Source: a virus
Direction: 5' to 3' (one strand)
DNA: 23,968 bases
Virus record (IMG/VR): IMGVR_UViG_3300027522_000038
Location: 1-23,968 of that record
The first letter of the stretch is position 1. Each line of letters starts with the position of its first letter. The notes under the pieces were generated by a model. It had not been told where the DNA came from. It did no database searches and worked only from the letters and a program-made list of their open reading frames with translations. The translations under genes and the position numbers were made by a program. This document shows positions 21,472 through 23,968 of the stretch, piece by piece.

Positions 21472-21501
21472 AAAAAAAGTTTTAAGCCAGATTAAGCTTA
21501 A
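21472..21501 (-). terminator. Terminator-like hairpin after the 120-aa gene
   Basis: Minus-strand TTAAGC (21501-21496) and GCTTAA (21487-21482) form a 6-bp stem with an 8-nt loop. AAACTTTTTTT follows. The stem lies in the last codons of the gene. Together with the promoter 20 nt downstream it separates two transcription units. Confidence 0.55.
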
Positions 21502-21844
21502 CTGGGAGATACCAGCCTTTCCTTCGATCTCTTTCACCTTCATCGAAGTTTCTTTCCCATCGTAGGACGTTCACTTCTTCGCTTTCTTCTGCAGCTATCA
21601 TGCAAGCGACCATGACTGCGATTGGATCTCCACCTCCAGCCCAGAGCAGGTAGTCATCTGGACTAAATCCCTGCATCACCTTTCGAGCTGTATCGATAGC
21701 CTTGCTTGGATTGAACTGTGGTTTGTCTTCAGGCTCGAAGACCACCTGCATTTTGTCAGCATACTTGGCTGCGTCTGTCAGGTCTGGCGTCCACCCAAAT
21801 TTATTCTCTCGTGGTCTTGTTACGATGTACACTGTGTTGGTCAT
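21482..21844 (-). CDS. Small protein of unknown function (120 aa)
   Basis: ATG 21844 has the leader AGAGAAAGGAAACGAC. The product starts MTNTVYIVTRPRENKFGWTP, a strand and turn reminiscent of small viral regulators. It has an alpha/beta middle (AAKYADKMQVVFEPEDKPQF; AIDTARKVMQGFSPDDYLLW) and a Gly-rich loop with a hydrophobic helix (AGGGDPIAVMVACMIAAEES). It ends in a basic strand (RDRRKGWYLPVKLNLA). The DYLLWAGGGDPIAVMVACMIAAE block is one I have seen in other marine phage small proteins, but I know no function. It follows the repeat-rich non-coding region and is the first gene of that unit. Confidence 0.6.
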   Translation of the reverse strand: MTNTVYIVTRPRENKFGWTPDLTDAAKYADKMQVVFEPEDKPQFNPSKAIDTARKVMQGFSPDDYLLWAGGGDPIAVMVACMIAAEESEEVNVLRWERNFDEGERDRRKGWYLPVKLNLA

Positions 21845-21887
21845 GTCGTTTCCTTTCTCTAAAACTAATTACGTCAATTTGTCTGAT

Positions 21888-21914
21888 TTATGGCATATAC
21901 CAAATCTGCCATAA
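21888..21914. promoter_or_regulatory. Inverted repeat of the TGCCATAA word (operator-like)
   Basis: TTATGGCA (21888-21895) and TGCCATAA (21907-21914) form a perfect 8-bp inverted repeat with an 11-bp spacer. The start-to-start distance of 19 bp is near two helical turns, as expected for a dimeric regulator. It lies about 45-70 bp upstream of ATG 21844. Confidence 0.5.
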
Positions 21915-21980
21915 TTCGCTCTGCTCTTCTTCCTTATTTATATAGTATATATTATATTATTATTATTATTACTATATATA

Positions 21981-21996
21981 TGTCATACTGTCATAC
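21981..21996. repeat. Tandem 8-bp repeat TGTCATAC x2
   Basis: TGTCATAC occurs twice with no gap (21981-21988 and 21989-21996). It belongs to the same TGYCATA word family as the other copies in this region. Confidence 0.6.
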
Positions 21997-22027
21997 CCAC
22001 CCCTACTACCCCACTTCTATGGGTATG
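21992..22027. repeat. GC-rich palindrome CATACCCA ... TGGGTATG
   Basis: CATACCCA (21992-21999) and TGGGTATG (22020-22027) pair perfectly over 8 bp around a 20-nt C-rich loop. A run of seven G follows directly (22027-22033) and could pair instead with the C-rich loop. It could form a hairpin in DNA or in RNA of either strand. Confidence 0.55.
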
Positions 22028-22067
22028 GGGGGGAGAGTAGAAAAGTGCTCTAAGGTGTCTGCCAATA

Positions 22068-22085
22068 TGACATAAATGCCATAAA
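22068..22085. repeat. Tandem 9-bp repeat TGACATAAA / TGCCATAAA
   Basis: TGACATAAA (22068-22076) is followed without gap by TGCCATAAA (22077-22085), differing at one base. These are further members of the TGYCATAA word family. Confidence 0.55.
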
Positions 22086-22094
22086 TAGTTTTAT

Positions 22095-22126
22095 GCCTTA
22101 TTTTATTGGGTGATAAGGCGTTTTTT
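22095..22126 (+). terminator. Terminator-like hairpin pointing rightward, against all genes
   Basis: GCCTTAT (22095-22101) and ATAAGGC (22113-22119) form a perfect 7-bp stem with an 11-nt loop. G and six T follow on the plus strand. On the minus strand no T-run follows, so it fits plus-strand transcription, although no plus-strand gene is seen. Confidence 0.5.
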
Positions 22127-22130
22127 GCAC

Positions 22131-22180
22131 TGTCATAAATACTGTCATAATTAATGCCATTAATACAATTTGCCATTAAT
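22131..22180 (+). repeat. Iteron-like array of TG(T/C)CAT(A/T)A words at 12-bp spacing
   Basis: Copies start at 22131 (TGTCATAAAT), 22143 (TGTCATAATT), 22155 (TGCCATTAAT) and 22171 (TGCCATTAAT). The first three lie exactly 12 bp apart. The last overlaps the final codons of the lysin gene. Directly repeated short words at fixed spacing are typical of protein-binding arrays such as replication iterons or cooperative operators. Confidence 0.55.
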
Positions 22181-22619
22181 CCACCAAGTTTGCAGGTCTG
22201 GAGAGTGGATGGAACAGGTCATCGTCTGTAACTTTGTAGAAGATATGTTTTCCAATCCTTCTGATCCTTTTGAGATCATCAGCCCAATAGGGATGCACTG
22301 TGTCGTTGTGATAATGGGTAGCTTCAGATCCGATCACACTGATGTAGTCACCCTCCTCCAACATGAGTTTTGCGAGAGCCTTAGACGTTCTCAGGGAGTT
22401 CTCTTCTCTGGGATAGTCTGACTTACCATCACACCACCAAGAGAACTGACAGCCCTCTGAGTTATCTTGCAGGACAACTTCACAGATATCATCTGGGTAG
22501 TTTGGTGAAGCCACTCGATTGAGCGTGACCTCTGCCACTGCGATCTGACCTTGAATTGGTTCTGACCTCGCCTCGAAGTAGATGTTTAATGCGAGACACA
22601 TAAGTGCTGTTTCTAACAT
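22176..22619 (-). CDS. Cell-wall hydrolase of the SleB type (endolysin)
   Basis: The 147-residue product is one catalytic domain with the SleB/Hydrolase_2 pattern. It opens with CLALNIYFEARSEPIQGQIA (E16 in YFEAR is the expected catalytic acid), then VAEVTLNRVASPNYPDDICE, CQFSWWCDGKSD, and the end block ATHYHNDTVHPYWADDLKRI followed by IGKHIFY. This family cleaves peptidoglycan, probably as a lytic transglycosylase, and phages use it as endolysin. No signal peptide or membrane segment is seen, so export would need a holin, none of which is evident nearby. The leader AGAAAGGAAAACAA precedes ATG 22619. It may act in lysis or in infection. Its position before the packaging genes rather than after the tail is notable. 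Confidence 0.85.
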   Translation of the reverse strand: MLETALMCLALNIYFEARSEPIQGQIAVAEVTLNRVASPNYPDDICEVVLQDNSEGCQFSWWCDGKSDYPREENSLRTSKALAKLMLEEGDYISVIGSEATHYHNDTVHPYWADDLKRIRRIGKHIFYKVTDDDLFHPLSRPANLVD

Positions 22620-22632
22620 TTGTTTTCCTTTC

Positions 22633-23454
22633 TTATTTATGCCAACCGTCCAAGACAGACTGTGGCAATTCTTCGTTCAATCTTTTTGGATAAGATTTAA
22701 TTAATTTTTCGATAGTTTTGAAATGCGTTTTCTTTGTCTTTCTATCTCCCCTAAATGCAAAGTATCTGCCTTTGGAATTTTGTTTTACTTTTTTAACATC
22801 TGGGTGATGTTTCTTTATTTCATCTAATGCAGTCGTTCCGAATCGTTGACGCATGTTTCTAGATCCATACAGCTTTCCGTTTATGACCCAAGCATCACGA
22901 TCACCTTTCCTGCTGTTAACATTTTTATTAGCATCTCTCATGCTTCCAATGTAATGAAATCCACAGGCTTGATATATAGTTCCGACTTCACCTGCCAGAT
23001 CATCTACAGTCGCTGTCACAACTTCATATTTGGCTGGCAACATTTTCATGGATTGTCTTATTAGTTTAGATGCAGAGTGTGGGTGAGCCCAGTGGACACA
23101 AGCACCACGATTTAATAAAATCATCTTACCTTCGAAGCCATACTTGGACCAGTCTGCAGCAGCCCTTCCCTGCTCTCTTGCGACTTTGCCCAAGTTCTCT
23201 GAATACTCTGGACCATAACAGACAACACCACCACAAACATTATCAAAGAATATTCCGTAGTAGAACCAATTTATAGCAGCCAAACATCCTAGCCACTCGT
23301 ATTCTTCTATAATAGTTTTTGCCGTTTCCTGTGTTGTTTTTCTTACAACTGCCTTTGAAATATCTGTATCGACATCATCCCACCAGTTACCAAACAGGTC
23401 ACCAGATTTTGTTTGTGCTACTTGCTCCCTGACAATTCTTTGGTGAGCCTTCAT
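22633..23454 (-). CDS. Mom-like GNAT-fold protein, probable DNA adenine hypermodification
   Basis: I place the start at ATG 23454 (MKAHQRIVREQVAQTKSGDL), one base after the methyltransferase stop. An upstream in-frame start at 23634 would overlap the methyltransferase by 179 bp and adds a non-matching leader. The 273-residue product follows the Mom/GNAT pattern: a strand-helix opening (AVVRKTTQETAKTIIEEYEW, 36-54), GCLAAINWFYYGIFFDNVCG (56-75), a core strand (KMILLNRGACVHWAHPHSAS, 110-129) and VVTATVDDLAGEVGTIYQAC (145-164), then GFHYIGSM. Mu Mom converts adenine to a carbamoyl-methylated form that blocks restriction enzymes. The C-terminal 80 residues are basic, probably for DNA binding. The exact chemistry here is inference. 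Pairing with a methyltransferase gene supports DNA modification. Confidence 0.75.
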   Translation of the reverse strand: MKAHQRIVREQVAQTKSGDLFGNWWDDVDTDISKAVVRKTTQETAKTIIEEYEWLGCLAAINWFYYGIFFDNVCGGVVCYGPEYSENLGKVAREQGRAAADWSKYGFEGKMILLNRGACVHWAHPHSASKLIRQSMKMLPAKYEVVTATVDDLAGEVGTIYQACGFHYIGSMRDANKNVNSRKGDRDAWVINGKLYGSRNMRQRFGTTALDEIKKHHPDVKKVKQNSKGRYFAFRGDRKTKKTHFKTIEKLIKSYPKRLNEELPQSVLDGWHK

Positions 23455-23455
23455 A

Positions 23456-23968
23456 TCACAAGATCCATTTAACTTTAGTTTCTTTAATGTCTTTCTTCCA
23501 GACAAACCATGCGAATGCCATGACCCCTCCAGACTTAAACTTGCCATCGACATTGAATGACAGTCGCTTCGAGAACACCCAGACAGTAGCTGGTGGATGC
23601 CTACTAAAGAACTCACCACGTTTGATACCCTCAAGGAACTGTAGACGCACTAGGAGAGCTAATTTGGTTGCTCCCAGATTGAGTGCCTTCTGTGCGAACT
23701 CGTGAGCCAGAGAGAATGGTGGATTGGTTATGATGTTTGGTGCAAGCAATTCCTGCTCTAACAGGAAGTCTCGACCACTGTTTCCATATCCATAGTCAAT
23801 CAGGTCTGTAGATATGACAGCATGATTTCGCCTCTCAAATAGTTTTGATATGGCTCCATCACCACAGGCTGGCTCCCAGACCTCGTGACTAAATAGCTCA
23901 CGATTTAGGAGAGCTTGGGTTGCTGAGTCTGGAGTGGGATAGAAGTCATTAGACTTACGCTTTTGACT
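23456..23968 (-). CDS. SAM-dependent DNA methyltransferase, 5' end off the window
   Basis: The frame is open through the right edge, and 170 residues are visible. It shows a FYPTP opening (9-13), methyltransferase motif I as WEPACGDGAIS (31-41), an acidic STDLIDYGYG following strand (53-62), and motif IV as TNPPF (81-85). The last is typical of N6-adenine or N4-cytosine amino-methyltransferases. The C-terminal part has LVRLQFLEGIKRGEFF and AFAWFVWKKD. The gene ends one base before the Mom-like start, so the two are translationally linked. The first few residues are missing from the window. The likely role is amino-methylation of DNA or preparation of bases for the Mom-like protein. The exact base and site are unknown. 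Confidence 0.8.
   Translation of the reverse strand, partial: SQKRKSNDFYPTPDSATQALLNRELFSHEVWEPACGDGAISKLFERRNHAVISTDLIDYGYGNSGRDFLLEQELLAPNIITNPPFSLAHEFAQKALNLGATKLALLVRLQFLEGIKRGEFFSRHPPATVWVFSKRLSFNVDGKFKSGGVMAFAWFVWKKDIKETKVKWIL

Follow-up and report, generated by a model that had tools for sequence, protein, structure and literature searches.

A word cluster in an intergenic gap

The genes of the window (the whole 23,968-bp stretch of viral DNA that was analysed) are annotated on the minus strand, and an endolysin-like gene and p120 are separated by a 331-bp gap in which short words related to TGHCATAA are concentrated. The features of the locus, from the right end of the window leftwards, are as follows:

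23456–23968, minus strand: DNA methyltransferase gene at the right end of the window
22176–22619, minus strand: flanking endolysin-like gene (PHROG 938)
21845–22175, minus strand: the whole candidate origin module, filling the gap between the endolysin-like gene and p120, with its outermost word reaching 22179; common to 17 distinct relatives
22131–22179, minus strand: array 1, with the words TTAATGGCA (22171), TTAATGGCA (22155), TTATGACA (22143) and TTTATGACA (22131)
22092–22125, plus strand: hairpin GCCTTAT...ATAAGGC-GTTTTTT, which lies in the spacer separating array 1 from array 2 and resembles a terminator when read on the plus strand
22068–22085, minus strand: array 2, with TTTATGGCA (22077–22085) and TTTATGTCA (22068–22076), 9 bp apart
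21996–22037, minus strand: C-run/G-run block, its composition kept at the same place in the compared modules
21981–21995, minus strand: tandem TATGACAgTATGACA with 8-bp spacing
21936–21980, minus strand: AT-rich block with (AAT)n and (TA)n, a presumed unwinding element
21887–21914, unstranded: inverted pair TTTATGGCA ... TGCCATAA beyond the AT-rich block, conserved at offsets 248/266
21482–21844, minus strand: small flanking gene p120 (PHROG 5888 / Pam3_gp32-like)

Because the gap is flanked by two minus-strand genes, the minus strand is preferred for reading its words, whose consensus is then TTWATGRCA. We read the whole module in this direction, which is the orientation of TerL and Prim-Pol.

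Exact TGHCATAA words occur 12 times in the window (3.5 expected), and six of these lie inside the gap, at 21888–22150, together with about four further variants. Under a local first-order Markov null, 0.08 exact words are expected in the gap, and none of 5,000 shuffles reached the six observed. The initial annotation, which reported a TGYCATAA-type cluster at a density far above chance, is therefore borne out: every word that it listed is present, and the inverted pair at 21888/21907, the tandem at 22068/22077 and the 12-bp series at 22131/22143/22155 are correctly placed. Three details needed revision. The tandem at 21981/21989 is a real 8-bp tandem, but its word is TGTCATAC-TGTCATAC and ends in C; the word at 22155 belongs to the 12-bp series, but its letters are TGCCATTA; and a further word, TGCCATTAA at 22171–22179, had been overlooked. 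This outermost word of array 1 is offset by 16 bp from the three words that are spaced at 12 bp.

Pairing is possible within the C-run/G-run block, but its folding is no better than that of shuffled sequence (z 0.1). The terminator-like hairpin is not conserved in one relative (L018).

Beside the module, the window encodes a Mom-like DNA modification protein (PHROG 1384) and then the DNA methyltransferase (PHROG 799), together spanning 22633–23968. It is possible that these proteins modify the phage's own DNA.

Conservation and genomic position of the module

Relatives were gathered through p120 and the endolysin, and 17 distinct ones (<95% identical) have in common a module of about 290 bp. 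Reading from the Prim-Pol side towards TerL, words occur at offsets 0/12/24 and 78/87/96, followed by the C-run/G-run block, TATGACAgTATGACA at 166/174, the AT-rich block and the inverted pair at 248/266. The 12-bp array is found in almost all relatives, and array 2 has up to three copies. Mean pairwise identity is 81% in the words versus 66% in the spacers, and the words are the more similar in 130 of 136 pairs. Loss of the words in relatives had been named as evidence against a binding array; instead, the words are retained and their spacing is preserved. The 'fixed spacing' of the initial annotation survives in altered form, as spacings of 8, 9, 12 and 18 bp that are each conserved at their own place rather than as any single spacing.

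The module is the top-scoring word cluster in each of three near-complete genomes (G001–G003). One stretch of less than 300 bp holds 7 of 11 TGYCATAA sites in G001, 7 of 13 in G002 and 7 of 11 in G003. Equal density elsewhere in the genome had also been named as a refutation, and it is not seen. In G001 and G002, the two genomes measured, the module also holds the 80-bp stretch with the highest AT content of the genome (85%). GC skew, which had been suggested as a further indicator, has local minima inside the module in all three genomes. These minima are suggestive, but they are confounded by gene direction in G002 and G003 and by the C-run/G-run block, and we did not accept them as proof of an origin. 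Third-codon skew is mixed and does not settle the matter.

The p120 operon is inverted and lies on the other side of the module in G001 (~40.1–47 kb) relative to G002 (~25–33 kb), whereas the orientation of the module to TerL is unchanged. The module is thus not part of p120. A comparison by presence and absence found no module-specific DNA-binding gene, and blastn of the gap against named phages gave no real match.

In the genome of a related phage (G004/L084, ~47950–48300), a different word array (CTGGGAA/TTCCCAG, TTGCAAGTGATTG) lies upstream of p120, where AT content is the highest in the genome and a GC-skew minimum is close by. This genome has no match to the 764-amino-acid Prim-Pol protein described below, and its array is probably another type of origin at the same locus.

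A primase-helicase with a predicted winged helix

In module-bearing contigs that extend far enough, a 764-amino-acid Prim-Pol protein is encoded upstream of the module. Three contigs (L078, L089 and L090) match the right end of the window with 100% identity over 1.9–6.8 kb and continue past it through a DUF6378 gene to the Prim-Pol/DUF3987 gene (L089:111–2405). The Prim-Pol/DUF3987 stop codon lies about 0.4 kb past the end of the window, and the gene is about 2 kb upstream of the module. Across the group to which the window belongs, the module is downstream of this stop at a distance of 0.8–4 kb rather than directly next to it. Pfam assigns Prim-Pol and DUF3987 domains, and no Toprim domain, to the corresponding protein of phage CRP-901 (gp11).

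The C-terminal 84 residues (681–764) are predicted to form a winged helix (pLDDT 86.6); the model of the full-length protein was poor (pLDDT 38) and was not used. The best Foldseek matches of this domain in the PDB are winged helices (probability 1.0, TM ~0.6), with E-values of 0.007 and above and none below 0.001, which indicates the fold class only. A sequence search of the PDB with the domain returned nothing significant. The model places residues 711 and 712 at the start of helix 2.

Words and two primase-helicase residues change together

Phages CRP-901 and CRP-902 and their relatives, whose module was found through a search of their Prim-Pol relatives, share the module, but their word is TTTATTGCA in place of TTTATGGCA. 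The TTTATTGCA words occupy the same 12-bp and 9-bp arrays and are accompanied by the C-run/G-run block, the AT-rich block and the inverted pair. That these phages might have no array at all is ruled out by their TTGCA words.

Among the contigs in which an array was found, proteins of the TER type accompany TGGCA words in 83 of 83 and proteins of the TES or TAS type accompany TTGCA words in 30 of 30 (113 contigs, 0 discordant). Two TER-type contigs with 2.5–3.4 kb of downstream sequence have no array there, probably because the module is farther away in their group (~3.9 kb in the group of G002). Across 34 distinct proteins, columns 711 and 712 of the 764 are the only ones that share no residue between the types: R-(D/E/A) goes with the TGGCA type and S-Q with the TTGCA type.

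On a tree of residues 1–680, the residue type and the word type each change three times, always together, and two independent pairs sit on well-supported branches. The clearest pair contrasts L405 (TER, with TGGCA words) with its neighbours L403 and L406 (TES), TTGCA words being seen in L406 and its near relative L404. Three evolutionary changes, two of them on well-supported branches, are too few for a sign test. Because the words and two adjacent residues of the primase-helicase change together, this co-variation points to the primase-helicase as the protein that reads them. The reading of G by arginine and of A by glutamine is a textbook contact, and we infer that residues 711 and 712 touch the base pair that changes.

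Two observations concern the annotation of CRP-901 (OQ401623.1). The annotated genes gp06 and gp07 overlap the TTGCA-word module (1614–2067) and may not be real genes. Upstream of terS, an unannotated open frame of 147 amino acids (52532–52975) appears HD-domain-like by eye.

Similar arrays in unrelated phages

Most sites returned by scanning for TATGACAGTATGACA were chance matches or belonged to close relatives, but a distinct minority have many more words nearby, often flanking an AT-rich stretch on both sides. Further arrays were found in bacterial genome contigs with a gapped scan. Eight clear cases have a TGTCATA/TATGACA array immediately 3′ of a primase-helicase gene, which encodes VapE (L211, L218, L238, L244, L320 and L325), Prim-Pol (L232) or DUF3987 (L327). 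VapE scored above the cut-off in 5 of 17 array contigs versus 0 of 21 contigs that had only a chance pair. A search of the array contigs with the PF13148 profile gave no matches.

Marinobacter phage PS3 (MF959999.1) has a dense GGTGACC/TGGTCA array directly 3′ of an annotated 'DNA primase' gene (~35170–35436; L414:1671–1937), which is likely to be an origin in a named isolate. Pseudoalteromonas phages C7 and H40/1 and Vibrio phage H188 have no clear array downstream of Prim-Pol.

Related words also occur in other settings. Two contigs from a Paludibacteraceae MAG (L322 and L330) and one from a Bacteroidales MAG (L321) have chromosomal inverted repeats, TATGACAgTATGACA ... TGTCATAcTGTCATA, around ~50–70 bp and away from replication genes. 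In L285 (296–724), an open frame that is antitoxin-like (Phd) by eye lies just before a terminase gene, and its start is overlapped by TGTCATA words, which are possibly an autoregulatory operator of another kind.

A probable iteron-type origin

We consider it likely that the word cluster is an iteron-type replication origin that is bound by the 764-amino-acid Prim-Pol/DUF3987 primase-helicase through its C-terminal winged helix. Very probably, DNA replication starts at this cluster in an abundant group of marine bacterial viruses. Several short, regularly spaced repeats, as in iteron origins, are concentrated at one place in the genome, and an AT-rich candidate unwinding element (the most AT-rich 80 bp in G001 and G002) lies between them. 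Co-variation suggests that the replicon supplies its own repeat-specific initiator. Recognition of iterons by the C-terminal domain of the helicase, as in SaPI-type systems, is supported indirectly, by the location of residues 711 and 712 in the predicted winged helix.

The initial annotation offered an operator, an iteron origin with adjacent AT-rich DNA and a packaging site as candidates. The origin is now strongly supported, whereas a pure operator and a packaging site are disfavoured, because the words vary together with the predicted DNA-binding domain of a primase-helicase and not with a repressor, because inversion of the neighbouring p120 operon leaves the module between replication and late genes, and because unrelated phages have similar arrays immediately 3′ of their primase-helicase genes.

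The best-surviving alternative, although unlikely, is an operator or promoter for late genes, at which a phage or host regulator bound to the words would drive or repress transcription towards p120, TerS and TerL. The fixed orientation of the module relative to TerL is consistent with such a role, as are the conserved ACTATAWRAATAAGG just after the AT-rich block and a TATGACA that precedes AATAAT by 16–18 bp and resembles a promoter on the minus strand. Yet promoter-like matches are no commoner than in shuffled sequence, and the p120 operon of G002 is oriented away from the module, which is followed by TerS. The type of word follows a pair of primase-helicase residues rather than any repressor, and unrelated phages keep their arrays by primase-helicase genes, not by late genes.

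Some pac and cos sites contain repeated short words, and in G002 and G003 the module is directly upstream of TerS, so a packaging site read by the small terminase subunit also deserves mention. We regard it as very improbable, given that TerS is ~2 kb away in the window and ~2.3 kb away in circularised CRP-901, that contig ends do not fall at the module and that the word type follows Prim-Pol residues. Sites such as attP and parS likewise combine short direct and inverted words within ~290 bp. An array of this kind, bound by a plasmid-like partition or recombination protein, is less probable still: its AT-rich core and exact tie to primase-helicase residues would not be expected, and CRP-901-type phages have been reported to be lytic and to carry no lysogeny genes (PMC10149686). 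A chance or low-complexity artefact of the gap, which is indeed AT-rich, is refuted by the local shuffles and by word positions that are kept in relatives despite diverged spacers.

At an iteron-type origin of this design, the winged helix would bind the ~9-bp TTWATGRCA words on both sides of the AT-rich block, so that two primase-helicase assemblies might form and flank it. The primase-helicase would then open the AT-rich block and prime DNA synthesis. More broadly, we marginally favour the view that a two-residue winged-helix code (R-D/E versus S-Q) in phage Prim-Pol/DUF3987 initiators sets the word that is read, that initiator and ~10 origin words have switched together at least twice to give incompatible replication types among close relatives, and that TGTCATA-like arrays of one class are used by VapE, DUF3987 and Prim-Pol replicons from different bacterial phyla.

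Comparison with known replication systems

By analogy, the module may work like the origins of SaPIs, P4 and pRN1. In SaPIs, the C-terminal domain of Rep acts on iterons just 3′ of its gene (PMC7581432). As in SaPI ori/Rep and SCCmec Cch2 (PMC7581432), there are several short iterons and an origin 3′ of the initiator-helicase gene, recognition is assigned to the C-terminal domain of the initiator, and the element supplies helicase and primase. Unlike in SaPIs, the presumed initiator is one Prim-Pol/DUF3987 protein in a phage group described as lytic, and the array is longer and more varied, having a C-run/G-run block and conserved spacings of 12, 9 and 8 bp. It also lies 0.8–4 kb from the initiator gene, although arrays are directly downstream in the unrelated phages.

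The alpha protein of P4 places a winged helix on origin repeats (PMC4234260) and is likewise a single primase-helicase with a C-terminal winged helix and repeats at its origin; however, its primase is of the bacterial (Toprim) type, in contrast to the archaeo-eukaryotic Prim-Pol and DUF3987 ATPase found here, and the words differ. In pRN1, the origin is downstream of a gene for Prim-Pol, helicase and winged helix (PMC4234260), an arrangement that the present system shares with pRN1 and similar phage Prim-Pol replicons. The pRN1 origin is a large stem-loop without iterons, whereas iterons and an AT-rich block dominate here. By eye, the module contains no DnaA boxes (TTWTNCACA), the conserved word being TTWATGRCA or TTTATTGCA.

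Kazlauskas et al. predicted origin recognition by winged helices in fusions of primase with VirE or DUF3987 ATPases (PMC5862659), and the domain plan of the Prim-VirE/DUF927/DUF3987-WH fusions is the same as here. They worked from proteins, whereas the present analysis sees the origin words themselves and ties the change in these words to two residues of the predicted winged helix, which supports their prediction. CRP-901-type roseophages (PMC10149686) are of the same phage group, and their Prim-Pol gene was reported; the module of CRP-901, unlike that of the window, overlaps gp06 and gp07 and has TTGCA words. The text of that report has no match for 'origin of replication' or 'iteron'. No description of this origin was found, and none of the titles listed for TGTCATA with origin of replication was relevant.

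The analysis names a concrete candidate origin, its likely initiator and the residues that probably read the words, and provides a motif rule for locating origins in many unannotated phages. The natural initiator/origin pairs offer a means to study how an initiator and ~10 scattered sites change specificity together. The module is probably an origin of the SaPI/P4 kind that is set apart by its initiator, its array plan and its two-residue switch.
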